A DNA stretch of 28,830 nt from positions 1 through 28,830 of IMG/VR virus record IMGVR_UViG_3300005831_000054; one strand, written 5' to 3'. The notes under the pieces are model-generated. The model was given only the letters and a program-made list of their open reading frames with translations, did not search any database and was not told the DNA's origin. The stretch is from a virus. Numbering within the stretch: the first letter of the stretch is position 1; every line of letters starts with the position of its first letter. The translations under genes and the position numbers were made by a program. This document shows positions 43 through 28,830 of the stretch, piece after piece.

Positions 43-564
43 TTAATGACGGATAAACGAAACGCGCATCTTATCGCGCTTAGAGTTGCAGTGGGGGAAC
101 AGGCCGTGGGCGTCTGAGTTGACCGCGAGCTGTATGTTGCGTGCTCGCTTGCGCATAGCCTCATGACTCTTGCCATACATCTTTGCGATCATACGCGATG
201 ACATACACCCGGGCAGACTGAGCGCCCAGCGGATGAGCTCGACGTGCCGGCGAAAAGCGAAGTCGTCGGACATAGCCAGGGCATCGATAAAGGCCTTTAG
301 CATAACGGCCACATGATCTCGAGCGATGAAGGCGTCGACCTCGACATGTTGCTCCCGTGCCGCGGCGAGCGAGTCTTGCATCCAACGGACGTGCTCGTCT
401 TTAATTTTGAAGACGTGCCGACTCTGGACCATCTCGCGATAAGGCAGGACGCCGGCGCTTCGCATCTTCTCCTGGTCCTTCTTGGATTGAGCGAGGAACC
501 AAGCGTCGAACGACTGAGCCTCTTTGGTTGGAGCCGTGAGGTCATTGATGAGAGCCTTCGTCAT
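43..564 (-). CDS. Hypothetical protein with C-terminal helix-turn-helix-like segment
   Basis: 173 aa, ATG start. I do not recognise the family. Residues about 121-145 (MSSRMIAKMYGKSHEAMRKR and following) have the spacing of a helix-turn-helix: a helix, a GKS turn and a basic recognition helix, like sigma-factor region 4 or a small transcriptional regulator. The N-terminal 100 residues are helical and charged, without membrane segments. It is the last gene of the minus-strand series and overlaps the preceding gene (542-958) by 23 nt, which points to coupled translation. A DNA-binding regulatory role is an inference from the HTH pattern alone. A shorter ORF in another frame starting at 545 has an ATGA overlap but encodes an Arg/Ser-rich, low-quality sequence, so I prefer this one. 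Confidence 0.7.
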   Translation of the reverse strand: MTKALINDLTAPTKEAQSFDAWFLAQSKKDQEKMRSAGVLPYREMVQSRHVFKIKDEHVRWMQDSLAAAREQHVEVDAFIARDHVAVMLKAFIDALAMSDDFAFRRHVELIRWALSLPGCMSSRMIAKMYGKSHEAMRKRARNIQLAVNSDAHGLFPHCNSKRDKMRVSFIRH

Positions 565-9303: not shown

Positions 9304-9561
9304 TCAGGCATTGCGTTTGTATGGCCCGCGCTTGTTGAGGTTCGACCAGGGTATGGCGGCCAGCGTGATCCAGTTGCGGATGCAACCGACCGAGACGCCC
9401 ATGGCTTCCGCGGCGTCAGCCTGAGACTTGCCGGCGGTGTTCAGGGCGGTCAGCTGCGGGATGACCGAGACGAGCCGACGAGCGGCGTGGGGGAGGACGG
9501 GTCGGGACAGCGTGAGGACGCGATCGCCGGCCTTGATGAATGAGACGGAGGACTGGTTCAT
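9304..9561 (-). CDS. Small helix-turn-helix protein
   Basis: 85 aa, starting MNQSSVSFIKAGDRVLTLSR. A classic HTH lies at residues about 46-66: SQADAAEAMGVSVGCIRNWI (helix, G-V-S turn, recognition helix). It is flanked by a basic C-terminus (NKRGPYKRNA). Likely a DNA-binding regulator or a homeodomain-like/excisionase-type protein. A plausible binder of the repeat-rich region at 10.4 kb, but nothing shows this directly. Its ATG carries the TCTTCCACCCACAAAACAA leader. Confidence 0.7.
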   Translation of the reverse strand: MNQSSVSFIKAGDRVLTLSRPVLPHAARRLVSVIPQLTALNTAGKSQADAAEAMGVSVGCIRNWITLAAIPWSNLNKRGPYKRNA

Positions 9562-9583
9562 TTGTTTTGTGGGTGGAAGATTA
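9562..9583 (-). promoter_or_regulatory. Pyrimidine-rich start leader (HTH protein)
   Basis: Transcript-sense leader TAATCTTCCACCCACAAAAC(AA) directly before the ATG. It shares TTCCACCCACA with the leaders at 5706 and 9947. Confidence 0.42.
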
Positions 9584-9946
9584 GGAAAGAAAGGCAGACT
9601 GGGATTTTGGGCGATACCACTTGCAGACATACTTTGTCTTAGCGCAGCGCCAACGACCGACTTCGACTTCCCCAGATTCGACTGCGTCGTCAAGCAGCTT
9701 GCGAATCTGCGTTTCGCTGACATCAGGTTTTAGCTCAAAGTAATGATGAATCGGGAAGAAGCCTTCGGGCGCCTTAGGCTCTTCCTTTGCAGGGATTTGA
9801 CTCAGCAACTTCTCAAGGGCCGAAACCCTATTCTCAAGGGCTTCGATTTCCTTGCGGAGATTGGTGGTGATTGGTGTGCGGCGAAACTTACGAACAGCCT
9901 GGAGGGAGTTCAAAAGTGCCAGTGGGTTGGTGTGTGTTGTGCTCAT
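9581..9946 (-). CDS. Hypothetical protein, coiled coil plus winged-helix-like domain
   Basis: 121 aa, ATG start. Residues 25-52 form a coiled coil (TNLRKEIEALENRVSALEKL and on). The C-terminal half (FELKPDVSETQIRKLLDDAV, ESGEVEVGRWRC, KYVCKWYRP) reads as a helix-turn-helix with a beta wing. This resembles small dimeric DNA-binding proteins, dimerising through the coiled coil. Function is inferred from pattern only. Confidence 0.6.
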   Translation of the reverse strand: MSTTHTNPLALLNSLQAVRKFRRTPITTNLRKEIEALENRVSALEKLLSQIPAKEEPKAPEGFFPIHHYFELKPDVSETQIRKLLDDAVESGEVEVGRWRCAKTKYVCKWYRPKSQSAFLS

Positions 9947-10551: not shown

Positions 10552-10856
10552 TGACGGCGGGAGCGTAAGAAGACCGCCACCCCCACCCCTAGGCACCCCA
10601 CGGCCAACGCCCAACCTAGGTCGCGGACGGACTTTAGGGCTAGGGTCGCAGCTGAGAGCCCTTGCTCGACACTGACCGAGTCGGACTTGATGCCCGCATC
10701 CGTCACGATTATGACCAGGGCGTCCCGAGATTGGAGAATCTGGAGCACCTCTCCAGCGATGTAGGCAGAGGCAAGCGCCGTCAGGCCGGCGAAGCCCGTG
10801 ACAAGCGTAACCGCGAGGAGAAGATTACCCCCGTCGCTTTGCTTTGCCTTTGCCAT
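10542..10856 (-). CDS. Two-span membrane protein in lysis cassette
   Basis: 104 aa. Hydrophobic segments at about 11-34 (LLLAVTLVTGFAGLTALASA) and 80-97 (LGWALAVGCLGVGVAVFLRS), a polar loop between, and a basic C-terminal tail RSRRQKA. The start overlaps the LydA-like holin gene by 32 nt. Size, topology and position suit an antiholin or second holin, but no family motif is evident. It is the last gene before the 10.4-kb regulatory region. Confidence 0.55.
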   Translation of the reverse strand: MAKAKQSDGGNLLLAVTLVTGFAGLTALASAYIAGEVLQILQSRDALVIIVTDAGIKSDSVSVEQGLSAATLALKSVRDLGWALAVGCLGVGVAVFLRSRRQKA

Positions 10857-12713: not shown

Positions 12714-15700
12714 TTAAGAGCGGCTCCACCAGACCTTGACGGGGAAAGAATAGGCGTCCAAGCGGGTCGCCATGCTAGCGGTGGACTCAAAGGACTGGAA
12801 GAAGTAATTGAAGTTAACCGTGGCATCCGCCGGGCAGTTGATACCAGTGGCCACAAGGGCGTCGTTGACGTAAAGGTAGCAGTACGAGGTAGCCGGGTTT
12901 GCCGGGTTAGGAGCAGTCATGATTAGCCAGTCAAAAGATTGGTTTACGACTGGAGTGAAAGACGAAGTGGTCTCAGTGTTAACTACGGCAGAACCATTCC
13001 AGCCAAAGGTGATAAGTTTCAGGGCGGTTCCACCACCGACAAGTTTCCAGCCGATGCCTCGAAGATTCGTATTGCTAGGGTCTCCGGTGGTAATGGTGTT
13101 ACGTCCGCCAAGCATACAATACGCAGTGGTGTTCGCATCACCCATGGCGGTGAATGTATGCGTACCAGACATAAAGATACGCTTGCTGAAGTCCTGCGTA
13201 AAAGCGTTGTCTCCTCGTTTCGCTGCCATCACTCCCCATGAAGACTGCGTCGTGTCGTAAATCATCTGGCCGTATCCAGCAACTCCGACATTCGGCGTTC
13301 CGACATCAATCACGCGATCGTTCGTCAGCTTGTACGCCGTTGCACCGGCTCCGCTGGTGGCAAAGGTCGGCGAGGAGTTCTGCGTGTCGAAGGTCGCCCG
13401 ATTAATGATCATGCGGACCGCATCAAAGGGGCTCAGCACCTTTGTGGTCGAAGAGGGCGAGGCGATTTCAGCGGTCGTCGCAAAGCCAGGGACGGCGGCG
13501 GTGACGAAAGCCGTCGTGGCGACGGCGGTCGTGTTATTGCCAGCGGTCTGCGTCGTGGCAATCGTGCCAGTCGGGAGCGTAGGCGTGCCGGTGAAGCTAG
13601 GCGAGTTTAGGGCGGCCCTCGTGGTATCGGTCCCGTGAACGTGGTCAGCCCTGGCGTAGCGCAAGGACGTTCCCACTGAGGCAGTGCCGTTGACCAGTGG
13701 CGTGGCCGAGCCAGCCTGACCGACAACGAAGGCCGTGGTCGCTAGGGCGACGCTGTTCGTGTCAGCCGCGGCGGTGACGCCGTTCGTCGTGCCTTGAAGC
13801 GTGGTGGTGGAACCCGTAGTGTTGCCGATGGTCAGGGTGGTCGTGCTGCCAGCCGCGCCGCCCGTTGCAATGGCCACGGCCTTGGTCGAGCCAGAGACAG
13901 TCGCACCCGTGAAAAGGTTGAAGGTGGACGCGGCGGTTCCGTTGCCGAGCGTGATGTTGTTGATGGCTCCCGTAATCGGGCCGTTGAAATTAGTCGTGCC
14001 GTTCAGCGTGGTCGTAATCGTTCCCGACCCGCCACCGATATTGATGTTATTCGTCGAGCCAGCAGCCGAACCTGTGCCGATGGAAATCGTGCGGGTCGAG
14101 CCTGAGATAGTGGCACCAGTGCCGATGCCGATGGTCGAAGCCGCCGTCGTGTTCCCGAAGGTCAGCGTCGGGCCGGTGAAGGTGTTGTTGCCCGAGAAGG
14201 ACTGACCATCCGAGAGGGTGGCGAACTGGCGGTTTCCTCCGTTGATGCGCGCGAACAGACCGCCAGTCGTCGTCCAGATGTCGCCGTCCACGAAAGTCGT
14301 CGGAGCAGTGCCGTGCGGGATGTTGAAGCCAGCGGAGGCCGTAACAGCAGGAATGGTCGTGACCTTGCCGCTTGCGTTGATGAAGGAATAGGTCGTGTCG
14401 GAAGTGGCGTCCTTGAACTGGACCACATCGCCCGTGCCGTCCTGAGTGATGACCAGAGCAGGAGAGGTCGAGTTCGTCGTGATCGTGACGTTGCCGGTCA
14501 GGTCGGGGCTGGCTTTAGTAGCAAACCCGCTTGAAACCCAAGACCTGTAAGCGATGAACTCGCTAGTGCCCGAAAGGCTATACCTGATAACGCCGCTACT
14601 ATCTACCCAAATGTCTCCAGTGTTTGCGGTAGTTGGGTCATTTCCTGGGTAGATGTATAATGGAGCCAAGGACGTTGTAGACGTTGGCAGCAAAAGTTTC
14701 CCAGTCAAAGTCCCACCAGCCAATGGCAAGTAGGTTGTCGCCGCGTCAGCCGTCGTCAGGTACGAGGACATTCCCGCCAGCGTCTGGTAGGTGCTGGCCG
14801 CAGTCGAGCTGAGGAGGTACGGCGACAGCGCCGAGCTCGTGATATAGCCCTGATCCTTGACGAAGGCCGTCGTCGCGATGGACGTGTCATTGTCGCCGGT
14901 CGAAGGCGTGACCGACTGAGGGTTGCCTGTGAAGTGAGGCGAGTTAGTCGGGGCGTAGTCGAAGTCCTTGACCCATTCGGTCGTGGCAATCCGCGTAGAG
15001 TTCGTGCCGGGCGATGGAGTCGGGGCGGTCGGCGTACCCGTGAAGGCAGGCGAGGCTAGCGGTGCGTAAGCCGACAGGTTAACAGTAAGGTTCCCAGAGG
15101 CGACGGCCAAGGGCGCCGTGACGCTGGAGATAAAGTCGGGGGTGGTCGTAACCACTTCCCACGCGGCGTTCTTGCGGGCGTACTGCGAACCATCCGAAGG
15201 GGCGTCACCGATGAAGCCGTCTGGGTTGTTGATGCCGTAGAAGCTGGAATTGACGTAGGACAGCGTCGCGTAATTAGCGAGTTCAGAGGCAACCCATCCT
15301 TCGGTAGCGTAGCCCGTTAACGCGGCGGCCGTGATGAAACCAGCCGGATTGGTCTGGAGGTAGTACGTCGAAGCCGCGGCGCTGGTCGTGAGATACGAGC
15401 TCATTCCTGCCAGAGTCTGGTAAGTCGCCGCCGCCGTGGCCGCAGAGATGCCGGCCGAAGTCTGGAGGGTTAGATCAGGAAACTCTACGCCCGTGGGGAT
15501 GATGCTCGTTGCGCTGGTGACGTTAGCGACGGATACTCGGTCAAAGAGGACGTTTGTCTTAAGGTTAAGATTGCTTGCCGATGAAACCGAAAAGCCAAAC
15601 CCAGCCACTTCGCTTACCCTGTCGAGTGTCGCATCTTCCAGGGTGATAGTCGCGTCGACATCCATAGCGCCGCCGGCTAGGGGGAGGTAGTTAAGCGACA

Positions 15701-15918: not shown

Positions 15919-16236
15919 TTAGGAGAGGGTCACCTGACCGATGACATTGAGGCGAAGGGTCACAGTGTAGAAGACGCTGCCGCCAAGGGAAAAGCGGATG
16001 TCCCAGCTGGCCGTGCCGGTCGACCAGGCTGAGGTGTCGTCGGGGTAGATGCCCGTGAAGGATAGGCCATCGTTAGCAATCGTGATGACCAGATCGTAAG
16101 AGCCGTGGGCCGAGTCGACGATGGTCGAGGTTACAGTCGTGCCGAGAAGGTTAGCCGGGGCGCCGGCCGAGGGGGCGTAAACGCAAGAGGCCGCGAAGGA
16201 CGTACCGCGCTTGAAGGTGACAGTGGTGCAGCTCAT
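15919..16236 (-). CDS. Baseplate/fibre-adaptor-like beta protein (105 aa)
   Basis: Starts MSCTTVTFKRGTSFAASCVY. All-beta pattern with an immunoglobulin/BppU-N-like layout: an initial strand with KRGTSF, a GAPANLLGTTVTSTIVDSAH segment, then TGIYPDDTSAWSTGTASWDIRFSL and a final strand VFYTVTLRLNV. In other phages, such small beta sandwiches link the baseplate to the fibre, which fits its place directly before the fibre gene. One of the six start-linked TTGCCAAT repeats lies upstream (16248-16264). The family assignment is tentative. Confidence 0.6.
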   Translation of the reverse strand: MSCTTVTFKRGTSFAASCVYAPSAGAPANLLGTTVTSTIVDSAHGSYDLVITIANDGLSFTGIYPDDTSAWSTGTASWDIRFSLGGSVFYTVTLRLNVIGQVTLS

Positions 16237-16247
16237 CGGGTCTTAAT

Positions 16248-16264
16248 CCTGCGAAGATTGGCAA
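16248..16264 (-). repeat. Start-linked repeat, copy A (TTGCCAAT-CTTC-GCAGG)
   Basis: Non-coding here. Followed by ATTAAGACCCG and then the ATG at 16236 (11 nt away). Confidence 0.7.
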
Positions 16265-16281
16265 GGGGGTGGGGGGAGGGG

Positions 16282-16779
16282 TCAGGGCAAGACGATTGAT
16301 GTGACAGGGTCACTAAATGCCGTAGCCTGTGCCACTCCGTTAAAGTTACCGCTTTCAGCTGTAATAGCAAAGTTCACGAATGAGCCGGAAGGAATGTCAA
16401 AGGCTGTCACTATTCCCCCGACTACTCCGAGGTTAAAATCGTCGAGGTCAACCCGAGCATAATCGAAGTTATCAGGGTCACCAAAAGCCCACGGCCCAAA
16501 GGTAAATCCACCATCCCCTGAAAGGTTAAACTGCGCTTGTAAATTGAACGGCTGCCAACACCTAAAAAGGTTCGCGCCAGTAGCGGAGGTTGCCAGCGTT
16601 ACTCCTGCCAGGGCATAGTCCGACGATGTTCCTGAAGGCTCATTGTATCGATACGCAGGCGTAAAGGTAACAGGCGAACGGAAATAACCCCAAGACGGCT
16701 GGCCTCCAGAGATAAGCGGAGTCTCGGCAGCGCTACCAACAACAAGGAAAGCGTTGGTATATACTGGGGGCGTCGGCAT
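16282..16779 (-). CDS. Hypothetical tail-region protein (165 aa)
   Basis: Not recognised. Beta-rich and low in charge: PVTFTPAYRYNEPSGTSSDY, FNLQAQFNLSGDGGFTFGPW, FVNFAITAESGNFN. The many Gly/Ser/Thr and aromatic residues are typical of distal tail or baseplate structural proteins. No signal or membrane segment. ATG at 16779, six nucleotides after the upstream stop. Confidence 0.65.
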   Translation of the reverse strand: MPTPPVYTNAFLVVGSAAETPLISGGQPSWGYFRSPVTFTPAYRYNEPSGTSSDYALAGVTLATSATGANLFRCWQPFNLQAQFNLSGDGGFTFGPWAFGDPDNFDYARVDLDDFNLGVVGGIVTAFDIPSGSFVNFAITAESGNFNGVAQATAFSDPVTSIVLP

Positions 16780-16785
16780 AGCGGC

Positions 16786-17376
16786 TTAGACGCTGGCGAA
16801 GTAATAGCGCGCAGTGAGGCTTGGAACCTTAATGCGATCCGTCCAGAGTGACTTGGTCACATCCTGCCAGACAGTAATCTCTTTGGTCGTCGGGTTTTGG
16901 TAGGCCGTAGCGAGGATGATATAGGAGTCGATGTCGCCAGTCGTCGGCATAAAGCTAAGAGAGTCCACAACAGGATAAGAAGGGCTTGCGCTGACGTGGG
17001 CCGTGTTGTCGTCAGGGTAGCGTGGGATTGTTGAGTCGTAGCCCAGTTTCATAACGATATAAGAGTAACCTGTCGTAACATTGAAATTCCACTTGTATAA
17101 AACAAACTCGTAATCGCTCACCGGCATATGTGTCATAAACCAAGCCGAGCCGCCAATCATCGGGTCGAGGTTGTTGACTAGACCAGGCTGGACTGTGAAC
17201 CAGTAACTTAAGTTACCGCCGACAACCTTCGGGCCGAGGTCGGTGACTTCAAACGGGTGCTTCGGCCTTGGCTCCGCCGGGTACGCGCACCAATCCGACC
17301 AAGCCTTCTGAATCGAAAAATTGTAGCCCTGGCTTGAGGCCGTGAAGGTATAGCCTGACCCGGGTTGAATGCTCAT
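16786..17376 (-). CDS. Hypothetical tail-region protein (196 aa)
   Basis: Not recognised. Starts MSIQPGSGYTFTASSQGYNF. Beta-rich with many aromatics (LSYWFTVQPG, YEFVLYKWNFNVTTGYSYIV, RYYFASV at the C-terminus). Resembles baseplate or adhesion structural modules in composition only. It lies between two other unrecognised tail genes in the stretch where distal tail and baseplate proteins are expected. Confidence 0.65.
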   Translation of the reverse strand: MSIQPGSGYTFTASSQGYNFSIQKAWSDWCAYPAEPRPKHPFEVTDLGPKVVGGNLSYWFTVQPGLVNNLDPMIGGSAWFMTHMPVSDYEFVLYKWNFNVTTGYSYIVMKLGYDSTIPRYPDDNTAHVSASPSYPVVDSLSFMPTTGDIDSYIILATAYQNPTTKEITVWQDVTKSLWTDRIKVPSLTARYYFASV

Positions 17377-17379
17377 CGC

Positions 17380-18243
17380 TTAGATGTTGATATAAACGTC
17401 AAGCGGCCAGCCTTCAGGAGAATAGCGGATTTCGTACATAACTTTATAGAGCGAGCCGAATTCCTCGACGTTGACTTGCGAAAGGAGATTCTTGTTTCCG
17501 TAGGTGGCCGTACCAGTCGGGCCCCACGCGGGGATCAGATTGAAGATGCCCCACGAACCCGTTGAGGTAGCCGTGCCAAGCAGGGCGTAGAGGGCTTGAA
17601 CATAGGCCTGAGAAGTCGTGTAGATCGTGCCCGAGTAGGTAGTCGTGCGGGCAAGGTACTGGGTCTTCCCGTAAAGGTCAGGATAGCCAGGGTCGACAAA
17701 ACCGATGAAGCGGCCGCCGGCGCCCGTCTCGAAGCACGCGCCGTTGTAGCCTACGGAGGAAGGTACGACCACGGGCTTCTGGGTGACGACGTTAAGCACA
17801 GTTACGGGAGGCCCAAGTGGCGAGTCAGTGTAAGCGCCGCCAAAGTCAGCAGGCAGGCCGGCGAGAGGAACGCCGCCGTAGCCAGTTGCCGCGGTGAAGA
17901 AGTTAGGGTGGGTCGTGATGTTCTCGGCAGTCAGGCCGTTCGCGACAGCCGTGTTGGCCTGAGTCATCACGCCGCCGCCGATGGTCGGGTCGATGCCAAC
18001 GTAGTCGACCTTGATGGTCATATATTCAAGCGCGTCGGTCGTGTGCGAAGACTTGTGGGCCTTCGTGTATGCGTACGGGGCTTGAGGGAACGCCGTGCCG
18101 CGGATTGAGATTGGGATGCCGGCGGTCTTGTCGACGCGGTAGGTGGCCGTGCCGGTGATGAGGCCGAAGCCGTCGGACTGGAAAGTGAAGCCAGGTTGCA
18201 GGACTTCGGAGCTCAGGACATTGCCTGTGGAGATAAGGGCCAT
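17380..18243 (-). CDS. Hypothetical distal tail/baseplate protein (287 aa)
   Basis: First gene after the tape-measure candidate, the position of distal tail (Dit)-like proteins in siphoviruses, but I see no Dit or Tal signature. The product starts MALISTGNVLSSEVLQPGFT and is rich in Gly, Thr and Tyr. A strand-rich C-terminus includes SLYKVMYEIRYSPEGWPLDVYINI split over two strands. The central region (residues about 115-200) is Pro/Gly-rich. Structural tail role inferred from position and composition. Confidence 0.6.
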   Translation of the reverse strand: MALISTGNVLSSEVLQPGFTFQSDGFGLITGTATYRVDKTAGIPISIRGTAFPQAPYAYTKAHKSSHTTDALEYMTIKVDYVGIDPTIGGGVMTQANTAVANGLTAENITTHPNFFTAATGYGGVPLAGLPADFGGAYTDSPLGPPVTVLNVVTQKPVVVPSSVGYNGACFETGAGGRFIGFVDPGYPDLYGKTQYLARTTTYSGTIYTTSQAYVQALYALLGTATSTGSWGIFNLIPAWGPTGTATYGNKNLLSQVNVEEFGSLYKVMYEIRYSPEGWPLDVYINI

Positions 18244-18247
18244 AAGA

Positions 18248-19027
18248 TTAAACGAGACCAGCCTTTTGCATGCTGACTGGGACGCGTTCGGTAAAGGGGT
18301 TGGGTACGCCGCCGCCGTTATTGATGTTCATATTCTGGAACAGGACGTCGCGGATCTCTTCGAGCAGCTCGTTCTGTTGAGTCATCTTTTCCATCACTGG
18401 GTTGGCGCCGACGCCGATCACGCTGCCAAAGCCCTCTGGGCCCTTGAACGTGCCGGCCTTTTGCTGGTCTGCGGCAAGTGATGCTTCGATTTCTTTACCT
18501 TTATCTGTGCTGTTAAAGTATTCCATGGCCATCCTCTGAACGTCTTTATTCTTGGATAGACTGTCGATGGTTTCACTGCCCTCGCGCAATTTGCGAACGT
18601 ACTCTTCGGGAAGATTAAAGTCCTTAAACTCTCCATCCTTATTCTCTAGAATTTGTTTGGCTACGTTTGCTCGGCCTGATTCGACAAGGTTCTTTTCATC
18701 TTCCATTTCCTTTTTTCGTTTAAAATAAGCGGCCGCACGCTTCTCTTCAGTGCTAACTAGTTTGCTGTCGCCAGCAGCCAAGAGGTCTAAGCCTTCCTTT
18801 GCCATTCGTTTTGTCTCTTCCATGGACTTAGAAAGAAATCCCATGATGCCCTGAATGAGAACCATAGGAGCGGCAAAGCCTAGGAAGATGTCTTTAAAGC
18901 CGGTTGAAAACTTCTTTTGAACGTCCTCAATCTGCTTGTTGAATCCGACCACAGCCGAGGACGCCTTGTTCATAGCCTGGGGGACGTCGGAGGTAGTCTT
19001 AATGTTTACTGTGAGGTCTTGGGCCAT
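18248..19027 (-). CDS. Tape measure protein candidate (unusually short)
   Basis: 259 aa. The N-terminus (MAQDLTVNIKTTSDVPQAMN) and the following helix with KASSAVVGFNKQIEDVQKKF match the look of tape-measure N-termini. A hydrophobic segment at about 48-66 (IFLGFAAPMVLIQGIMGFL) and long charged helices up to residue 190 follow. The C-terminus carries another helix (VMEKMTQQNELLEEIRDVLF). Tape measures usually exceed 500 residues in siphoviruses, so the tail would be very short (about 0.15 nm per residue gives under 40 nm). It follows a chaperone-like gene, as expected. Start-linked repeat copy B lies upstream. Confidence 0.6.
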   Translation of the reverse strand: MAQDLTVNIKTTSDVPQAMNKASSAVVGFNKQIEDVQKKFSTGFKDIFLGFAAPMVLIQGIMGFLSKSMEETKRMAKEGLDLLAAGDSKLVSTEEKRAAAYFKRKKEMEDEKNLVESGRANVAKQILENKDGEFKDFNLPEEYVRKLREGSETIDSLSKNKDVQRMAMEYFNSTDKGKEIEASLAADQQKAGTFKGPEGFGSVIGVGANPVMEKMTQQNELLEEIRDVLFQNMNINNGGGVPNPFTERVPVSMQKAGLV

Positions 19028-19038
19028 GTAGGTTTCCT

Positions 19039-19617
19039 TTAACCTGCTGGATTGGCAACGGAGGCCTTCGCCGCTTCGGCGTCTTTAAGCAGCTCTTCCT
19101 CGATGTAGGCCTCTTCCTCGGGCGACATGATCGCCACGTCCGCACCCTTGCGCATAGCAAAGGCCGCATTCAGCCAAATGGCCTGACACTCCGGCATCTC
19201 CCACGCCCGCTTCTCGTCAATGTTGTTGGCAATTAGGTTGGCGATAATGCTCTGCACCCAGGGCATGTTGCTCTTCCCGCCGGTCTTCTTGTTGTTCTGT
19301 TCCCAGAATTTCGGCCAGTTGTTTAAAAGGACGTAGCCGGCGAAGGCGTTTAAGAGGCTTTCAAACTTTTCAGGCCTTCGGACTAGGCTCATTATTCGCA
19401 TTTTATCCCAAAAGCCAATATGTCCAAGCGTTTCCTCAGCGCACACTTGGCAAGCAAAGATGAGATCGGCGGGAGTCACGCCGCGAGAGCCCGTGACCAG
19501 GGGCGAGTCAAACGCCATCAGACGCACGCGGTACTTGAGGCACCAAGGGTAGAGCGTTCGGCCTAGCAGCTTGAACGGGGCCGGGTCTACATGACTATTC
19601 AGGAAGCGGCGGTCCAC
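19039..19617 (-). CDS. Probable tail assembly chaperone
   Basis: 192 aa from a GTG at 19617; an in-frame TAG lies just upstream and no ATG is near. Helical, with a PADLIFACQVCAEE segment, an aromatic VLLNNWPKFWEQ segment and an acidic C-terminus (MSPEEEAYIEEELLKDAEAA). It lies between the tube-like protein and the tape-measure candidate, where gpG/GT-type chaperones sit. I see no -1 frameshift extension. Its last codons (SVANPAG, stop) are encoded by start-linked repeat copy B. Identity rests mainly on gene order. Confidence 0.5.
   Translation of the reverse strand: MDRRFLNSHVDPAPFKLLGRTLYPWCLKYRVRLMAFDSPLVTGSRGVTPADLIFACQVCAEETLGHIGFWDKMRIMSLVRRPEKFESLLNAFAGYVLLNNWPKFWEQNNKKTGGKSNMPWVQSIIANLIANNIDEKRAWEMPECQAIWLNAAFAMRKGADVAIMSPEEEAYIEEELLKDAEAAKASVANPAG
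19043..19058 (-). repeat. Start-linked repeat, copy B (TTGCCAAT-CCA-GCAGG)
   Basis: Lies inside the 3' end of the chaperone-like gene (encodes VANPAG) with a 3-nt rather than 4-nt spacer. Fifteen nucleotides later comes the ATG of the tape-measure candidate. Confidence 0.65.
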
Positions 19618-19650
19618 CCCTTTAGACTAACACCCCAACGGGGGAGTCAA

Positions 19651-20031
19651 TCAATAGGTGATGTCTTCAAACGACTCGGCAGTCACTGACACACTGACGA
19701 ACCCTTTTGAACTGCCGCGGTCGTCGACCTTGGTGATCACTCCTGAGAAGCTGACCGAAGCCACGCCGGCAGGATAAGCCGATGCGGTCTTAGCCGTGAA
19801 AGTTAAAGCGGCGCCGAGCTGCGGAACGCTGGTGGCCTTGGCCACGCCCTCGATGGTAATTTCCGAGCGGCGGTCGTCATAGCGAGCCGTGATCGTGCGG
19901 CCGCTTTCGTCAACGACCATGCCGGTGTTGTTGAAATTCGACGCCACAGAGTAGCTTTGAATTACGAGGTTGGCCTGTTGGCCGCTCCCAATTCCGTAAA
20001 GGCAGACTACGCCGGTATTGACTTCGCTCAT
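19651..20031 (-). CDS. Tail tube (major tail) protein candidate
   Basis: 126 aa, all-beta: VVCLYGIGSGQQANLVIQSY, TGMVVDESGRTITARYDDRR, SEITIEGVAKAT, VASVSFSGVITKVDDRGSSK, SVSVTAESF. The repeated strands with a central DDRRSEITIEG turn are typical of small tail-tube/major tail proteins of siphoviruses. Position after the tail-terminator-like gene and before the chaperone-like gene agrees. Start-linked repeat copy C immediately precedes the ATG, fitting a need for high expression. Confidence 0.6.
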   Translation of the reverse strand: MSEVNTGVVCLYGIGSGQQANLVIQSYSVASNFNNTGMVVDESGRTITARYDDRRSEITIEGVAKATSVPQLGAALTFTAKTASAYPAGVASVSFSGVITKVDDRGSSKGFVSVSVTAESFEDITY

Positions 20032-20037
20032 CTTAAA

Positions 20038-20054
20038 CCTGCTCTAATTGGCAA
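20038..20054 (-). repeat. Start-linked repeat, copy C (TTGCCAAT-TAGA-GCAGG)
   Basis: Intergenic. The site is followed by TTTAAG and the ATG at 20031. AGG is placed like a weak Shine-Dalgarno. An in-frame TAG inside the spacer shows that the repeat is not conserved for its peptide. Confidence 0.75.
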
Positions 20055-20057
20055 CCC

Positions 20058-20492
20058 TTAGACAGGGGGCAGGACAGTGAGGACATCATAGGCAAACGAG
20101 GTCGCCCAGGAGCGCTCGTCGATGCCCTCGTCTTCGGCCCTCGGGCTAACGTCATAGCAGGTCGCGTCTCCAGTGGCCACGAAGGCCGCTTGGATTGAGG
20201 CAAGGTCGTTCATATTGCCAGACAGGGATGCGCACCTGGCACGATGCTGGGCGAGCGTCGTGTCATCGGCGTTCGAGAAGAGGGTGATGCGGACCGAGCA
20301 GCTGAAGTTGCCAAGGCCTTCGGGGAGGTCGGACGGCGGGCTCGCCGAGTCGCAGAGGACCACGGCCTTGGGCAGGGTCTGCGTGGCGCTGCTGTCGCCC
20401 GTCAGTAATGCCACGCCGGCAAGGCCAGCCTGGGCGGAGAGATATGTCGCGAGAGTAGACTCAACGATATGCCGAATTGAACGTGTGCCCAT
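20058..20492 (-). CDS. Tail terminator / minor tail U-like protein candidate
   Basis: 144 aa, starting MGTRSIRHIVESTLATYLSA. The layout (an N-terminal helix, then AVVLCDSASPPSDLPEGLGN, a strand SCSVRITLFSNADD, a helix LAQHRARCASLSGNM and a C-terminal strand TSFAYDVLTVL) matches tail-terminator/lambda U-type alpha-beta proteins. Those cap the tail tube and join it to the head. It lies between the neck protein and the tube candidate. The leader is AT-rich (AACCAAAAATAAACCC) without SD. Confidence 0.55.
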   Translation of the reverse strand: MGTRSIRHIVESTLATYLSAQAGLAGVALLTGDSSATQTLPKAVVLCDSASPPSDLPEGLGNFSCSVRITLFSNADDTTLAQHRARCASLSGNMNDLASIQAAFVATGDATCYDVSPRAEDEGIDERSWATSFAYDVLTVLPPV

Positions 20493-20496
20493 GGGT

Positions 20497-21459
20497 TTAT
20501 TTTTGGTTAAATTTGTTGACCGGCTTTCGCATGCGATAGCGAAGCATTGAGGGCATTTGCTTGACGCGGTTGCCGTAGACGAGGCCGAGCGTGTCGGCTT
20601 GGTCGGCGATGCCGTTGATGTTTCCGATAGGGTTAGTCACAGAGACCTCCGCGATCTTGTCGGTGAAGGCGCTCTTATTGTAGCCAGGTACTCCAGAATG
20701 CAAGGTCACCCATGTGGCTTTCCGTAGCTCGGCGCCGGGTTCGCCCTGCTGGCCGTTGTTGTCCTTCGGCCGTGGGAGACTTGCCAGCGCCTTGGCCCAG
20801 CCAGACTTGACCATCCCGACCATCTTCTGGCGCTTTAGAATGTAGTCGTTTAGCTCGCCCTTGTCTTCGACGAGCAGCTTGGCCGAGACAGCCTTCTGGC
20901 CTTTACTGATGCGACCGCCGAAGCGACCTTTGACCTGGTCATGGATTGACCGCAGGTTGGTGACATACCCCTGCGTTCCGTACTCGTTCTTTACGGGGGT
21001 TGCCCGGTTGAGGAAATTCTTGGCCTTGGCAAAGGCTCGTGCCTTGTCGGTATCCTGCACAATCTTTGACAGAATGTTCTTACTGCTGATTTGACTGAGC
21101 GCCTTGCCCCCAGTTGTCAGACGGGTAAACGCCCCGATGTCGTTAGCCTTAACCGCAAAGGCAATCTGGTTGATGATAAGGCCAACGGCCGAGCGGTTGG
21201 TCGAGTCGTTTGCCGCGACGAAGATTTTGGAGATGTCGCCGGCTACGGCTTGGAGACCTGCATTGTGCGCTGCGTTGCTCAGGCCGTTGCCTCCGCCCTT
21301 GGTCATGGGAGGGGTAAACTTAGCCGCGTCCTGACAGGCCAACATGGCTTGCTCGAGGACGGCGTCCCGCATCGTGATCTGCATGCCAGCCGCAAACTGA
21401 CGACAGGACTCCACGAATTGAGCCAGGGACTTTGGCTCGATGGAGACCTTGGCCGGCAT
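20497..21459 (-). CDS. Neck / minor tail Z-like protein (320 aa)
   Basis: Starts MPAKVSIEPKSLAQFVESCR. The start is fixed by a TAATG overlap with the preceding gene (21457-21461). Helical N-terminus, a TPPMTKGGGNGLSNAAHNAG loop, Lys/Arg-rich middle (HDQVKGRFGGRISKGQKAVS) and a C-terminus rich in basic residues (MLRYRMRKPVNKFNQK). Gene order (head closure, this gene, tail terminator) matches HK97 gp10-like/gpZ minor tail proteins that bind DNA or the connector. Assignment from position and basic composition. Confidence 0.5.
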   Translation of the reverse strand: MPAKVSIEPKSLAQFVESCRQFAAGMQITMRDAVLEQAMLACQDAAKFTPPMTKGGGNGLSNAAHNAGLQAVAGDISKIFVAANDSTNRSAVGLIINQIAFAVKANDIGAFTRLTTGGKALSQISSKNILSKIVQDTDKARAFAKAKNFLNRATPVKNEYGTQGYVTNLRSIHDQVKGRFGGRISKGQKAVSAKLLVEDKGELNDYILKRQKMVGMVKSGWAKALASLPRPKDNNGQQGEPGAELRKATWVTLHSGVPGYNKSAFTDKIAEVSVTNPIGNINGIADQADTLGLVYGNRVKQMPSMLRYRMRKPVNKFNQK

Positions 21460-21836
21460 TACTGGTTGTCGTCGATGACGATGAGCGTGACCCACGCCGA
21501 GCCGGGCTTGTAGGTCTGGCTGGTAATGCGGACATTATTCCCGCCGGCGACAATCTTCTTACCTTGGGCAAGCGATGGGATGACGGCGCCTCCCGTGATA
21601 ATGGCCGTAGACGCCCCCGTAGAGCCGTCTGGCAGGGTCCAGGAGGCCGTTGCGGCGGGGAGCCTGACACTATACTGGGTCCGCTCCATGTACCCCCCTG
21701 CTTCGAGGACAGTCTGGATGGCAGGGTCGGAGATAAGGCAGGAGAAGGTAATCGCCCCAGAGTTAGCCGAGCCGGCCACGGGGAAGTCGGCCACCATCTC
21801 CTTCGCGTCTGGGAGGAATTCAGCAAAGAGGCTCAT
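21459..21836 (-). CDS. Head-closure or head-tail adaptor protein candidate
   Basis: 125 aa, starting MSLFAEFLPDAKEMVADFPV. Beta-rich with a small N-terminal helix; includes NSGAITFSCLISD, YSVRLPAATASWTL and a terminal strand WVTLIVIDDNQ. First gene after the capsid terminator and before the neck gene, the place of head-closure or stopper proteins. Sequence running upstream in frame is an Arg-rich artefact that crosses the terminator. Start-linked repeat copy D lies 6 nt before the ATG, so the gene probably has its own expression signal. Confidence 0.55.
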   Translation of the reverse strand: MSLFAEFLPDAKEMVADFPVAGSANSGAITFSCLISDPAIQTVLEAGGYMERTQYSVRLPAATASWTLPDGSTGASTAIITGGAVIPSLAQGKKIVAGGNNVRITSQTYKPGSAWVTLIVIDDNQ

Positions 21837-21842
21837 TCTAAA

Positions 21843-21859
21843 CCTGCGACCATTGGCAA
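21843..21859 (-). repeat. Start-linked repeat, copy D (TTGCCAAT-GGTC-GCAGG)
   Basis: Lies between the major capsid terminator and the head-closure ATG at 21836 (6 nt, TTTAGA). Because it follows a strong terminator, downstream genes need either read-through or a new promoter near here. Confidence 0.75.
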
Positions 21860-21867
21860 ACAGGCAC

Positions 21868-21894
21868 AAAAAAAGGGCCCCTTTCGGAGCCCTT
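21868..21894 (-). terminator. Rho-independent terminator after the major capsid gene
   Basis: In transcript sense: stem AAGGGCTCC / GGGGCCCTT (9 pairs including one G-T), a GAAA tetraloop, then seven T. It begins 19 nt after the capsid stop codon. A textbook intrinsic terminator, probably a partial one that raises capsid mRNA relative to the tail genes. Confidence 0.92.
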
Positions 21895-21913
21895 CGTTTT
21901 CTCGTCAGACCGC

Positions 21914-22792
21914 TTAGGCGGCGGTGACGTAGCGAACAGCGCTCGTTCCGCGGCCCTTGTTGGCGCCGATGAGGATCTGAGCGATGCAGCGGATGTTGCC
22001 CGTTTCGGCCTGACCGACGAGCACCTGGACGGAGAGACCAGACTCGGCAGTGGCGACGCTGGAATTGAAGCCAGCGATTTCGGACATAGGGACGCCCGTT
22101 GCGACGAGGAGCGAATCCGGGCCCATGGCCACGCCCGCGAGATTCTCGATGGCAGGGATTTGGTTCCACTGGTAGATGTCCATGCCGGCGACCTGACCGA
22201 TAGAGCCGGAGGTCACGACAGCGTTGGCACCAGGGTTGAGGGAGCCGTAGATCTTAGCGTCGTTGCGGAGACCCTTGAGGTAGCCGTTGCCCACGAGGAA
22301 CGAGCGGGGTTCGCCGGCCTTAGCGCCGTCGAGGAGGAACTGAGCCTGAACCACGTCGTCATAACCGAAATCATTTAGAGCGACGATTTCTTCGGTGGCG
22401 AAGTTGGCGGTCGTGAAAACGTCGCCGATTTCGAGCCAGCACTTGTCGACGATGGCCTGAGCAGCGGTCTTCGCGTAAGCGTTGATGAGGTACTGCATGC
22501 CGTACTCCTGGATGTCGAGGGGGGAGAATTCGTCGACGTACTTGAAGTGTTTGAGGGTCACGGAGCTGTTGCTCATCGTGGCGCCGTCAACGTCCGCAAG
22601 GGTGTTGGTCGTCTTGTTGAATTCCGAAGCGGTGCCGGCGCCCATGATCGGGACGAAGACAGTCTTACCAGCGCGGCCGACAGAGGCGGACAGGTTGGTC
22701 GAGATGTTGTTGAGGATGGGCAGCTTGCCGGCGACAGTCTGGACGATGTAGTCAGACAGGACAGCCGGAGCGGTAGGGAGGACAGTAGCCAT
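21914..22792 (-). CDS. Major capsid protein (HK97 fold)
   Basis: 292 aa, ATG start. Recognisable capsid features: an N-terminal arm (ATVLPTAPAVLSDYIVQTVA), FVPIMGAGTASEF, an E-loop-like stretch, a spine-helix region (NAYAKTAAQAIVDKCWLEIG), FLVGNGYLKGLRNDAKIYGS, the domain A segment VAGMDIYQWNQIPA, and a C-terminal QVLVGQAETGNIRCIAQILI. Typical of N4-gp56/P22-like or other HK97-fold coats of about 300 residues. It sits after the scaffold and before the terminator. Not a proteolysis-delta fusion: the scaffold is encoded separately. No SD before the ATG. Confidence 0.85.
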   Translation of the reverse strand: MATVLPTAPAVLSDYIVQTVAGKLPILNNISTNLSASVGRAGKTVFVPIMGAGTASEFNKTTNTLADVDGATMSNSSVTLKHFKYVDEFSPLDIQEYGMQYLINAYAKTAAQAIVDKCWLEIGDVFTTANFATEEIVALNDFGYDDVVQAQFLLDGAKAGEPRSFLVGNGYLKGLRNDAKIYGSLNPGANAVVTSGSIGQVAGMDIYQWNQIPAIENLAGVAMGPDSLLVATGVPMSEIAGFNSSVATAESGLSVQVLVGQAETGNIRCIAQILIGANKGRGTSAVRYVTAA

Positions 22793-22828
22793 AGGTATGT
22801 TTTAGGTAGGGTGAGGGTTGGGGGAAAG

Positions 22829-23257
22829 TTACTTGATGATCTCGGCCTTGTGGGCGTTGAAGAAGGCGATGCGGGCCTGACCGGCAGGAAGCGCCATGTA
22901 GGCGGTCTTCACTTCGTCGGAGCTCATCTTCTTGGGCGAGTCGCCTTTCGGCAGCTCGACGGGCTCGGTACCGAAGGACGCGACAATCTTCGCGGCTTCC
23001 TTCGAGGCGCTGGCCTTGACGGCTTCGAGCTCGGCGACCTTAGCCAGGGACTCGGCAAGGGCGGCTTCGGAAACCTTGAGGGCTTCGGAGAGGGAGGCGA
23101 TGGAAGTCTCGCGGGTAGCGGCTTCAACCTTGAGGGACTCGAGCTCGGCGGTGGCGCCGACAGTGAGTTTCTCGACAGTGGCACGGAGGTCGTCACGTTC
23201 GGCGGTGAGGCCGGTGAGCGAAGCCGCGGCGGAGACGAGCTGTTCTTCGATGGTCAT
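22829..23257 (-). CDS. Possible internally started scaffold protein (142 aa)
   Basis: Same frame as the HAD-scaffold gene, starting at Met146. The ATG at 23257 has repeat copy E nine nucleotides upstream, the same arrangement as five other gene starts. The product would be a pure coiled-coil scaffold, comparable to lambda Nu3 nested in gene C. The evidence is the repeat and the domain boundary. The second initiation is not shown experimentally. Confidence 0.5.
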   Translation of the reverse strand: MTIEEQLVSAAASLTGLTAERDDLRATVEKLTVGATAELESLKVEAATRETSIASLSEALKVSEAALAESLAKVAELEAVKASASKEAAKIVASFGTEPVELPKGDSPKKMSSDEVKTAYMALPAGQARIAFFNAHKAEIIK

Positions 23258-23692
23258 AGTCTTGAACCTGCGAGAATTGGCAACCTTCGCTTCCGGCGCT
23301 TCAGGGATGGGAACCTCCTCGACGTCATCTTCCTCGACCATCTCGGGAATGGCATCGGGGTCCATAACCTCAACGCCGAGGGCGGCGACGGCGTCACGGG
23401 TGTCGGAGCGGTTGTCGATAAACATGTCGACCGGGCGGCCGGCATCGAGCTCGGCCTTGATGACGCCAGACTTGAAAGCAGGGGCTTCGGCGCCGGAGTC
23501 ATTCATGATCAGGGCGTCGTACTCGAAGTCGACGGCGGCGAGGTCGGCGATGGTCTTCTCGCGGTCGGACTCGGGGCGGTTCGTCAAGACGACGACTTCC
23601 TCGGCGGTCTCGTCGATGTAATCGATGACGCGCTTGACGGGCTGGCCGTCCTTAAGGATGGTATCGTCAATGTCGGTGAAGATGCGGGGCAT
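22829..23692 (-). CDS. HAD-phosphatase / scaffold fusion protein
   Basis: 287 aa. Residues 1-112 are a HAD-superfamily phosphatase: motif I DIDDT (7-11), motif II VVVLTNR (33-39), Lys74 and motif IV FIDNRSDTRD (91-100). An acidic Pro/Glu linker covers 113-138. Residues 146-287 are a scaffold-like coiled coil (MTIEEQLVSAAASLTGLTAE and on) with a Lys-rich C-terminus (ARIAFFNAHKAEIIK) that would bind the coat. The position between prohead protease and coat supports a scaffold role. Start-linked repeat copy E sits inside the gene just before Met146, so two proteins may be made. What the HAD domain does is unknown; 5' or 3' phosphate trimming of nucleic acid is one possibility. Confidence 0.75.
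   Translation of the reverse strand: MPRIFTDIDDTILKDGQPVKRVIDYIDETAEEVVVLTNRPESDREKTIADLAAVDFEYDALIMNDSGAEAPAFKSGVIKAELDAGRPVDMFIDNRSDTRDAVAALGVEVMDPDAIPEMVEEDDVEEVPIPEAPEAKVANSRRFKTMTIEEQLVSAAASLTGLTAERDDLRATVEKLTVGATAELESLKVEAATRETSIASLSEALKVSEAALAESLAKVAELEAVKASASKEAAKIVASFGTEPVELPKGDSPKKMSSDEVKTAYMALPAGQARIAFFNAHKAEIIK
23267..23283 (-). repeat. Start-linked repeat, copy E (TTGCCAAT-TCTC-GCAGG)
   Basis: Inside the HAD-scaffold gene (encodes VANSRRFKT) and nine nucleotides before the in-frame ATG at 23257. Confidence 0.7.
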
Positions 23693-23693
23693 T

Positions 23694-24488
23694 TTAGAAA
23701 GAGGCTAATGCTTTGTTGAAGGAGTCGGCGAGGCCAGTGACCAAGCCCTGGGCGGCAGCCTGCTTGCCGGAGAAGACCTGACCGCGGAGGGCGGAGTCTG
23801 CGACCAGCGTGCGCTTGGAGCGGATGGCGGCTTTAAAGTCTTCGTGAATCGAGTCGACGCCAGACTGGAGGTCGGCGACTTGTTCGTCAGAGAGAGACGT
23901 GCCTTCGATGCCGGCGCCTTTTAGGGGGGAGCCAGTCGACTTGATGACTACCATGCGGACGCCAGAGTCTTCGTAGAGTTTGGACATATCGGGGACGGCC
24001 ATGTAGACGCCCACGCTGCCGACAGTAGCCGAAGGGGAGGCGACGACGCGGTCGGCCTGAGAGCCAAGCCAGTAAGCAGCCGAAGCCATCTCGGAGTCAG
24101 TGTAAGCCATGGTCGGCTTCTCGAGGTCGCGAATCTTGTTGGCCAGCTCTTCGACGCCCGTGACAGTGCCGCCAGGGGATGAGACGTTGAAGGCAATCTT
24201 CTCAACCGCAGGGTCGGAAGCGAAGAGGTCGACGGCCATTGACAGGTCGTTGACGTCGACGGCGCCCATCATCTTCTCAATTGGGCTTAGGTTCTTACCG
24301 ATCACGCCAGCAATCGGGATAACGCCCACGCCGTTCTGAACGTAGGGCACGGGGGCCACGCCGAAGAATTGGGCGAGCATGTCAGTGAAGCCGAATTTCT
24401 CGGCCATGACTGAGAAGTCTTGGGCTTTGGCCGGGTCGATGAGCATTGGCTCACGGCCCTTGAGGGCATGGGATAAGAATCGGGACAT
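23694..24488 (-). CDS. S49-family prohead protease (SppA/lambda C-like)
   Basis: 264 aa, starting MSRFLSHALKGREPMLIDPA, one nucleotide after the portal stop. Core S49 features: IPIAGVIGKNLSP (57-69), NVSSPGGTVTG (oxyanion/nucleophile region, 101-111), catalytic Ser136 in DSEMASAAYWLGSQADRVVA, SPSATVGSVGVY (151-162) and the Lys190 region (KSTGSPLKGAG) that would complete the Ser-Lys dyad. These proteases cleave scaffold and head proteins during maturation. Order portal, protease, scaffold, coat is standard for lambda-type heads. No scaffold domain of its own: that is in the next gene. Confidence 0.88.
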   Translation of the reverse strand: MSRFLSHALKGREPMLIDPAKAQDFSVMAEKFGFTDMLAQFFGVAPVPYVQNGVGVIPIAGVIGKNLSPIEKMMGAVDVNDLSMAVDLFASDPAVEKIAFNVSSPGGTVTGVEELANKIRDLEKPTMAYTDSEMASAAYWLGSQADRVVASPSATVGSVGVYMAVPDMSKLYEDSGVRMVVIKSTGSPLKGAGIEGTSLSDEQVADLQSGVDSIHEDFKAAIRSKRTLVADSALRGQVFSGKQAAAQGLVTGLADSFNKALASF

Positions 24489-24489
24489 G

Positions 24490-26001
24490 TTATTTGTTAA
24501 GGTTGGTACCGGGTAGGGGTTCAGCCTGGTCGACTTGTGCGACTGTGCCAAGGGGAGTGTTAGTCGGACGGAAGAGCAGCTCGAATGGGATGCCGTACGT
24601 CTTCGAGAGGTTCTGGATGTAGGCCATATCCTTGGCCCGTAATTCCATTTCAGTGGAGAAGTCGAGGCCGCGCTGCCCGTAGAGCTCGCTCACGGACATC
24701 AGGCCCATCTCAATGTCGGCGCGATCGTTGGCCGCGTCACGGCCAGCGTCGACAGTCACGCTCTTCGGGGTCGTCCAAGAGGTAGACCACCAGCGTGGGT
24801 CGTCAGGCAATTCGCCCTTAGCGATGCCGTCGGCAATTATGAATTCCCAAGTTGGTTGGCAGAAGGTCTCCAGAAGCACATTTTGATATTTACCGAAAAC
24901 CCGTGCGGCCTTGGCGGTCACCAACCTTACCCCAGCTCCGCCGGCCGAAGTTACGTCCTTTACGAATTCGTAAGGGAGGATTGAGCAAATGTCTTTTTCG
25001 AGCGCCGCAAGGAATCCTACGAAGGTGCTGTTGGGGCGTTTTGACTCAAAACTTTCAAAAGAGTCTGAGCTCTCGAGCACGATGGCCTTTCCGCCCATCT
25101 GGCTTGCAAGGTTTTCGGCCGAGTTATTGTTAGACGAAATTTCAGAGGCCGCGTCTTCGTCGAGGAAGCCTGAGCCCTTCTTGATTACACGGGTCACGTC
25201 CCCGTTGTCTTTCACTGCGCGCCGCTCGAGCTCGAGGATTTCTTTGACGTCCTGAACTCCGCACAGGCTGGACTGAAGCACTGGAACGCCGCGAGAGCCG
25301 GAGGCCGTTTCCATGTCGACGATGTGCATGACCGACTGGGCCTCGACCTTGCGGGAGGAGCCGTCGGCTTGGTAAAGGTTGTAGTAGCGGACTTCGTTAT
25401 ACTTGCCGAAGCCAATGCCGTCCCAGCAATCTTCGGGGGTGTCGGCGTCGGTAGGATCGCCACATCGGTGAGCCTCGACGATTTGGATTTGAGCGCGGTC
25501 GCCGTTAACGACCTTGATGGCAAACGCATCGCCGTCACGGACCATTGCCCGAACGAGGATGGACTGGCACTGGGCAAACGACTTACCGGATACGTCAATG
25601 CGCTTAGACTCGCGGGCGAAGTATTCTTCGTACTGACGAGCCACGGCCGGGTCGGTTGCGTGGGACTGCGGCTTGATGCCGTCGCCCGAAACGTAGATGA
25701 CCAGGTCGTTCAGGATGCTACGGAAAAGGGAGGACTCGCGTTCGGCCCATCGGCACTTCTTGACCATCTCGTTGCGGTCCCAAGGGGACATGTCGCGGCG
25801 GAGGTCGTCGGGCTGCGGGGCGTAGATGACCCGGCGGGCGTAAGTCTGGACAGTGCTGCCCCACTGGTTCCCGCTGTATTGGTTATTAAAACCAGAGCGA
25901 GAGTTGCCGGCGGCCTGTGCCTTCGGCGTACCCTTGCGGGTAGTCGCCTTGGCTGGCTTCGTGCGTAGGCTAACAGTCGGGACTTTCTTGCGGGGGGCCA
26001 T
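24490..26001 (-). CDS. Portal protein (lambda family)
   Basis: 503 aa. Lambda/HK97-type portal features: a basic N-terminus, then DRNEMVKKCRWAERESSLFR, FRSILNDLVIYVSGDGIKP, a SILVRAMVRDGDAFAIKVVN wing region, FGKYNEVRYYNLYQADG, and MHIVDMETASGSRGVPVLQS followed by VQDVKEILELERRAVKDNGD, the stem helix region. C-terminal RAKDMAYIQNLSKTYGIPFE continues in the clip/barrel part. It forms the dodecameric DNA gate at the capsid vertex. It lies between gpW-like and protease genes, as in lambda. Normal length. Confidence 0.9.
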   Translation of the reverse strand: MAPRKKVPTVSLRTKPAKATTRKGTPKAQAAGNSRSGFNNQYSGNQWGSTVQTYARRVIYAPQPDDLRRDMSPWDRNEMVKKCRWAERESSLFRSILNDLVIYVSGDGIKPQSHATDPAVARQYEEYFARESKRIDVSGKSFAQCQSILVRAMVRDGDAFAIKVVNGDRAQIQIVEAHRCGDPTDADTPEDCWDGIGFGKYNEVRYYNLYQADGSSRKVEAQSVMHIVDMETASGSRGVPVLQSSLCGVQDVKEILELERRAVKDNGDVTRVIKKGSGFLDEDAASEISSNNNSAENLASQMGGKAIVLESSDSFESFESKRPNSTFVGFLAALEKDICSILPYEFVKDVTSAGGAGVRLVTAKAARVFGKYQNVLLETFCQPTWEFIIADGIAKGELPDDPRWWSTSWTTPKSVTVDAGRDAANDRADIEMGLMSVSELYGQRGLDFSTEMELRAKDMAYIQNLSKTYGIPFELLFRPTNTPLGTVAQVDQAEPLPGTNLNK

Positions 26002-26004
26002 AGA

Positions 26005-26259
26005 TTATTCGAAGCGATTGTCCCAGCGCGTGTTGATCATCGTACGGCGACGGCCATAGGTCGACGGGTCGAGACGGCTTAGGGCGAACATGGCTTCGTT
26101 AAGCATTTCTTTCGGGGGAAGGGCAAAAGCCTTCGTCGCCGAAGAGCCGGAATCGGCGTAGCTCATAAGGGTTTTGCCGTCCATGATGAGGGCCAAAGCC
26201 TTCGCCTTGAGGTCAAGCAATTCGCATTCAGTCAGGCCGATAAAGATTCCTTGAGCCAT
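26005..26259 (-). CDS. gpW-like head-tail joining protein
   Basis: 84 aa, starting MAQGIFIGLTECELLDLKAK. Two helices around residues 11-30 and 50-65 flank a short beta hairpin (MSYADSGSSATKAFAL), the gpW layout. The size and position between large terminase and portal match lambda W. A basic C-terminus (STYGRRRTMINTRWDNRFE) fits joining-protein function. The start at 26259 follows the 37-aa gene's TAA by one nucleotide. An in-frame extension to 26355 is rejected because it reads through the repeat and overlaps that small gene. Confidence 0.7.
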   Translation of the reverse strand: MAQGIFIGLTECELLDLKAKALALIMDGKTLMSYADSGSSATKAFALPPKEMLNEAMFALSRLDPSTYGRRRTMINTRWDNRFE

Positions 26260-26260
26260 T

Positions 26261-26374
26261 TTAACTGCGGGAATTGGCAACGATAGGGGCGGCGACGCCG
26301 ATGTCCACGCCGCGAGTCTCTTCCTTCCCGCAACCATCGGCGCCGCCGCTTGCATTCAGTCTCCCCGGGTTCAT
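26261..26374 (-). CDS. 37-aa small protein between large terminase and gpW-like gene
   Basis: Hidden small gene. Its ATG overlaps the terminase TGA as ATGA (26371-26374), and its TAA lies one nucleotide before the next ATG (26259). It reads MNPGRLNASGGADGCGKEET and RGVDIGVAAPIVANSRS. The C-terminal VANSRS is encoded by start-linked repeat copy F. Gly-rich and polar, no fold recognisable. It may be a true peptide or a coupling ORF that carries the ribosome to the gpW-like start. Confidence 0.45.
   Translation of the reverse strand: MNPGRLNASGGADGCGKEETRGVDIGVAAPIVANSRS
26265..26280 (-). repeat. Start-linked repeat, copy F (TTGCCAAT-TCCC-GCAG)
   Basis: Followed by TTAAA and the ATG at 26259. 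The second G of GCAGG is missing here. Overlaps the 3' end of the 37-aa gene. Confidence 0.65.
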
Positions 26375-28708: not shown

Positions 28709-28764
28709 GGCCGAGTGCTGGAGTTCCCCCGTTTGCTGTTTTGGTCAAATCCGTCATTTGCCCC

Positions 28765-28793
28765 CGTATAAAAGAAGGGCAGGTGTCGCCCAA
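28765..28793 (-). promoter_or_regulatory. Possible promoter for the terminase genes
   Basis: On the minus strand TTGGGC and TATACG are separated by 17 nt, a weak sigma70-like match (3 of 6 and 4 of 6). The surrounding 28709-28830 is non-coding and has T-runs. A 4-bp hairpin GGGC/GCCC lies in the spacer. This is the only non-coding stretch in front of the packaging genes and could also hold the cos/pac site. Confidence 0.3.
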
Positions 28794-28830
28794 AAAAATA
28801 CATTTTGGAACATTACACTTTTTTGAGCCG

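Follow-up and report, generated by a model that had tools for sequence, protein, structure and literature searches.

What is the role of a short sequence that recurs directly before six virion-gene starts in the genome of an uncultivated phage? The window analysed here is a whole IMG/VR record (28,830 bases, 58.8% GC). Its minus strand carries six exact copies of TTGCCAAT and no further copy in the whole window, and all six lie on the coding strand, directly 5' of virion-gene starts. The first-pass annotation had listed the same six sites, and each was recovered at its minus-strand coordinates. None of 100 dinucleotide shuffles of the window attained six copies (shuffled mean 0.65, sd 0.80, versus 6 observed). 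A looser pattern allowing three mismatches was at chance level in the window, which places the signal in the exact core. The core is followed by a spacer of 3-4 nt and by GCAGG (GCAG in the gpW copy), with the ATG 5-15 nt further downstream. This anatomy had been described correctly, except that the motif had been ended too early. The unit runs further 3', through NTTA, and reads TTGCCAAT-N4-GCAGG-NTTA (~21 bp) in the clade of the window, clade A. A search of Rfam gave no match.

Genes preceded by the element

The copy at 26260..26280 (minus strand, as are all features given below for the window) precedes the gpW-position gene (26005..26259), which starts at ATG 26259 and not at the start of the longer open reading frame at 26355. 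The scaffold-position gene (22829..23257) begins at an internal start, ATG 23257, and its copy (23263..23283) lies within the fused HAD-scaffold frame. The head-closure-position gene (21459..21836) starts at ATG 21836, downstream of the copy at 21839..21859. Copies at 20034..20054 and 16244..16264 precede the tail-tube-position gene (19651..20031, ATG 20031) and the fibre-associated gene (15919..16236, ATG 16236), respectively. The copy at 19038..19058, before the tape-measure-position gene (18248..19027, ATG 19027), has a 3-nt spacer and overlaps with the last part of the preceding gene as well as with conserved coding residues. Its clade B counterpart has lost the NTTA end and departs from the pattern. 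This tape-measure copy may be less strong, or coding in part. The gene names gpW, tape measure and fibre adaptor, already used in the first-pass annotation, are taken from position and size; Pfam and PHROGs searches returned no firm match for the three proteins. For the capsid protein, tblastn found no relative among sequenced phages.

The frame around the scaffold start is fused in clade A, where a HAD-like phosphatase domain and the scaffold form a single frame (22829-23692 in the window) with the scaffold start inside. A stop codon lies between the two parts in clade B. The nested start is comparable to that of C/Nu3 in phage lambda.

Related phages were collected from IMG/VR in two TerL scans, which yielded 197 and 331 confirmed stretches. 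From each scan 80 loci were kept, and the comparison of the element spans ~200 related loci of uncultivated phages. Locus counts per gene include redundant contigs, while conservation figures refer to distinct sequences. With clade-specific forms allowed, the element was present at all orthologous starts of the gpW (131/131), head-closure (129/129) and tail-tube genes (112/112) and at 71 of 98 tape-measure starts. It also occurs at the scaffold and fibre starts of relatives. It was absent from the starts of the genes for portal (0/135), protease (0/145), capsid (0/136) and TerL (0/117) and of gene 19617 (0/105). Exact TTGCCAAT was found at orthologous starts of the six virion genes only and at none of 13 other genes. 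Every complete motif in clade A loci stands at one of the six starts, on the coding strand only. Early genes lack the element, and the restriction to virion genes suggested by the annotation is confirmed. At the in-frame scaffold site, 32 distinct sequences are free of synonymous changes in the codons GTT GCC AAT, and the neighbouring codons vary. Conservation thus exceeds that of the flanking codons and acts at the nucleic-acid level, as had been proposed.

Among sequenced phages, Verrucomicrobia phage P8625 is the nearest, with a TerL identity of 24%. Two genome-collection contigs carry TerL relatives, and since both belong to MAGs labelled Opitutales or Opitutae, the host is probably a member of the Opitutales, subject to binning error. 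In two Opitutales-labelled candidate host genomes, TTGCCAATNNNNGCAG was matched once and not at all, respectively; the element is not used as a signal by these genomes. Relative to the window, some of the related contigs (25-29 kb) show circular permutation. Many contigs end ~600-770 nt upstream of terL and others span the junction (28709-28830 plus 1-42 in the window), which suggests a packaging (cos-like) end between the open reading frame at 43..564 and terS.

An invariant 3' end and clade-specific forms

Site-averaged profiles gave TTGCCAAT at 100%, N4, GCAGG at 93-100% per position and then NTTA. The unit ends, at position 20, in an A that is shared by 163/163 distinct copies from three clades, and a pyrimidine precedes it in 137 of the 163. 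The ATG begins at offset 20 (14 copies), 21 (25), 22 (43), 23 (66) or 26-28 (14). It never begins earlier than offset 20, and hence no ATG precedes the invariant A. Most copies lie 12-25 nt from the ATG. In the tail-tube gene of L181, L193 and L166, an intact motif is found 45 nt from the ATG (31 nt further, by one shared insertion), and an intact motif in the clade C tape-measure gene is ~66 nt away. The description of the repeat as start-linked is therefore not strictly correct. The invariant A stands at a fixed distance from the motif, irrespective of where the ATG lies. This pattern is as expected if the A were the transcription start.

Clade B sites read TTCCAAT/TTCCATT-N4-GCAA/GCAT or a close variant, with GCAAG, GCATA or GCAAA in place of the GCAGG of clade A. 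In clade C, TTGCCAA-N4/5-GGGCAA or a close variant is found at the gpW, scaffold, head-closure and tail-tube genes, and the copies are near-palindromic (TTGCC-N6-GGCAA). The core of L057 is shifted or altered (GACAGG, GTCAG, ACAGG) at all five sites read. A Shine-Dalgarno function, with pairing to CCUCC of the 16S rRNA at a fixed distance to the ATG, does not fit the clade B forms or the variable distance, and the weak Shine-Dalgarno role considered in the annotation is abandoned on account of the sister phages. An RNA hairpin of TTGC with GCAR is broken in clade B and L057.

All sites within a clade change in concert between clades, which points to a shared trans-acting factor. The spacers differ among the copies of one genome; the copies have therefore not been homogenised by recombination. 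Selection by such a factor appears to be the simplest account of the concerted change.

Transcription, translation or processing

The first-pass annotation had offered translation, processing, regulation and recombination without choosing among them. The evidence favours a promoter or operator. The element is probably a phage-specific late promoter/operator that gives rise to leaderless or very-short-leader mRNAs, a reading to which a probability of about 0.6 is assigned from comparative sequence data. Transcription would start at the invariant A at the 3' end of the element. Late mRNAs would be leaderless or possess leaders of up to ~8 nt, except for a longer one at the tape-measure site. A separate late transcription unit would begin at each copy: gpW-portal-protease-HAD, scaffold-capsid as far as the terminator, head closure onward, and one unit each for tail tube, tape measure and fibre. 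The element would act on DNA, and a phage DNA-binding protein would direct the host RNA polymerase to it.

An intrinsic terminator (21872..21895) follows the major capsid gene, with a run of at least five T in 130/130 loci, and the head-closure copy of the element comes directly after it. The capsid gene (gap ~33 nt) and gene 19617 (gap ~34 nt) are uncoupled from their upstream neighbours and carry no element, as expected for genes inside a transcription unit. Gene 20492 varies among relatives. The element is missing where the gap to the upstream neighbour is at most 9 nt (0/97) and present where the gap is 21-23 or ~965 nt (24/24 loci). The large-gap loci examined contain an ATP-dependent DNA ligase gene in antisense orientation between gene 20492 and its upstream neighbour. 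Behind an antisense insert, a gene would be expected to depend on a promoter of its own, so the pattern supports a promoter; it does not prove one, as uncoupling alone could fit a translation signal. In several clade B phages (L189, L145, L124, L138) the ligase gene (~300 aa) interrupts the tail module in antisense orientation, between the orthologues of 20497-21453 and 20058-20492 of the window.

Counting against a promoter are the lack of a conserved -35 or -10 box, the lack of a recognised RNA polymerase or sigma factor in the window, the deviating tape-measure copy of clade B and the fact that presence at gene 20492 also tracks translational uncoupling. Nothing is conserved in the sequence upstream of the element, and a scan with the sigma-70 consensus revealed no excess of sites. 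A sigma-70 promoter with -35/-10 hexamers at 16-18 nt spacing was rejected, as no conserved boxes surround the motif. The main rival is a late translation-initiation signal in the RNA, read at uncoupled virion starts by a phage RNA-binding protein or a modified ribosome, a role that has been proposed for the start-associated sequences (SAS) of mycobacteriophages. It would explain why the copies mostly lie so near to the ATG and follow uncoupling at gene 20492, and it suits a window in which most genes lack Shine-Dalgarno sequences. It is considered rather unlikely, since the uncoupled capsid and 19617 genes and the early genes do without the element, the invariant A is tied to the motif instead of the ATG, distances of 45 and ~66 nt occur, and pairing with rRNA cannot account for the clade-specific forms.

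Cleavage of a long late transcript at the element by a nuclease would likewise produce near-leaderless mRNAs, and the fixed A and the missing promoter boxes fit such a processing site. It is an improbable explanation: one copy follows a terminator and another an antisense gene, the element has no conserved hairpin, and the window has no recognised nuclease of this kind. About as improbable is an operator or another DNA site that serves mainly for something other than initiation at that place, for instance late-gene repression or a boundary for module recombination. The near-palindromic clade C copies and an inverted repeat at the same place in P8625 speak for it. It leaves the invariant A and the absence of any ATG before the A unexplained, and full clade A copies stand on the coding strand only, before particular genes. 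The recombination boundary suggested in the annotation is disfavoured in particular, as neither spacers nor flanks are homogenised between the copies of a genome.

A candidate factor and comparison with known systems

The best candidate for a phage DNA-binding protein acting at the putative promoter is encoded by the open reading frame at 43..564 (173 aa, putative HTH). In contigs covering the junction it lies immediately upstream of terS, and it is a conserved gene of all three clades, with 62 distinct homologues. All distinct clade A proteins share EAMRKRARxIQ as the putative recognition helix, even those of L012/L018, in which the initial part of the HTH has diverged. Clade B proteins have a helix of the FWM-, FWT- or IWT-type, those of clade C have EQV. 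Helix type agrees with the type of the gpW motif wherever both were read on one contig. The agreement speaks for the promoter reading, but it rests on three clades and shared ancestry could explain it. Pfam and PHROGs returned only sub-threshold matches to the HTH region (Rha, anti-repressor, terS). Likeness to RinA/ArpU-type late regulators is confined to gene position, and membership in that family was rejected. A structure predicted from 12 sequences reached a pLDDT of 55.6 (42 for the single-sequence model). Foldseek found no significant hit with the 12-sequence model (best E 0.3), and several of its weak, non-significant matches are sigma factors. It is tentatively proposed that this protein of no known family might be a sigma-like or sigma-replacing factor that leads the host RNA polymerase to compact promoters spanning -20 to +1, devoid of -35 and -10 boxes, and so gives rise to leaderless late mRNAs in Opitutales.

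A second HTH protein (9304-9723) shows weak similarity to sigma-70 region 4 and is conserved in the family. It was matched in 12/16 searched records, with identities of 65% in the clade B genome G007 and 44% in the clade A genome G003. It is a poorer candidate because its divergence does not follow the motif clade. A basic protein (542-958) adjoins the open reading frame at 43..564 and has tblastn matches in clade A genomes only. Among the window proteins examined, neither an RNA polymerase nor a sigma factor was recognised.

Promoters of T7-type single-subunit RNA polymerases are compact and contiguous and include the start. The element resembles them as a contiguous unit of ~21-23 bp with a presumed start inside. 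Membership was rejected, as no open reading frame for a single-subunit RNA polymerase was recognised and the largest frames encode fibre, terminase and portal. The late promoter of phage AR9, AACA-N6-TA/G, has the transcription start as its last base (PMC5312081). AR9 and phiKZ late promoters thus share with the element a short sequence that ends at the start, putative in the present case, but they depend on multisubunit RNA polymerases of the phage, and no such enzyme was recognised in this window.

The start-associated sequences (SAS) of cluster K mycobacteriophages consist of GGGATAGGAGCCC with a Shine-Dalgarno core (AGGAG) and occur in the non-structural half of the genome (PMC3203893; see also PMC12699233). 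ESAS are SigA-like promoters with a consensus that differs by subcluster (PMC11373665). Like SAS/ESAS, the element is short, directional, repeated, phage-specific, within a few nt of start codons and rare in or absent from the host. The likeness drawn in the annotation holds for the anatomy, with a different sequence. In contrast to SAS, the element is found at virion genes only, lacks a Shine-Dalgarno core in the sister clades and possesses an invariant A fixed to the motif. It has neither the GGGATAGGAGCCC/AGGAG consensus nor the restriction to the non-structural half and is not assigned to the cluster K SAS.

Late-gene control in Verrucomicrobiota phages is undescribed in the literature searched, in which no description of this element was found either. 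The element yields six promoter candidates with a base-exact predicted start across ~200 environmental contigs, and a candidate regulator can be named. Promoters from -20 to +1 that operate with neither -10 and -35 boxes nor a phage polymerase, if confirmed, would represent a novel means by which host RNA polymerase is redirected. A possible role of the SAS-like sequences of mycobacteriophages in transcription is touched by the same question.

P8625 (NC_029047, L320) carries a start-linked repeat of its own, TTGMCA-N17-TATTGG/TATCTG-N7-ATG, with the inverted repeat GTATCC..GGATAC at about -22 to -4. The repeats (5412-5447, 9620-9655, 10736-10771, 15558-15593) precede the gpW-position gene, the gene after the capsid terminator, gp15 and a fibre gene. 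The -35-like TTGMCA lies 36 nt before the ATG, which implies that P8625 transcripts may start at the ATG and be leaderless; the -10-like hexamer is poor. The repeats share with the element the corresponding genes, the position directly before the ATG and the implied leaderless start, which speaks for the promoter reading, but differ in sequence and in their recognisable -35-like box. They were not found described in PMC4642752. For P8625 gp13, the annotated start (9620) is probably incorrect, ATG 9656 being the better fit.
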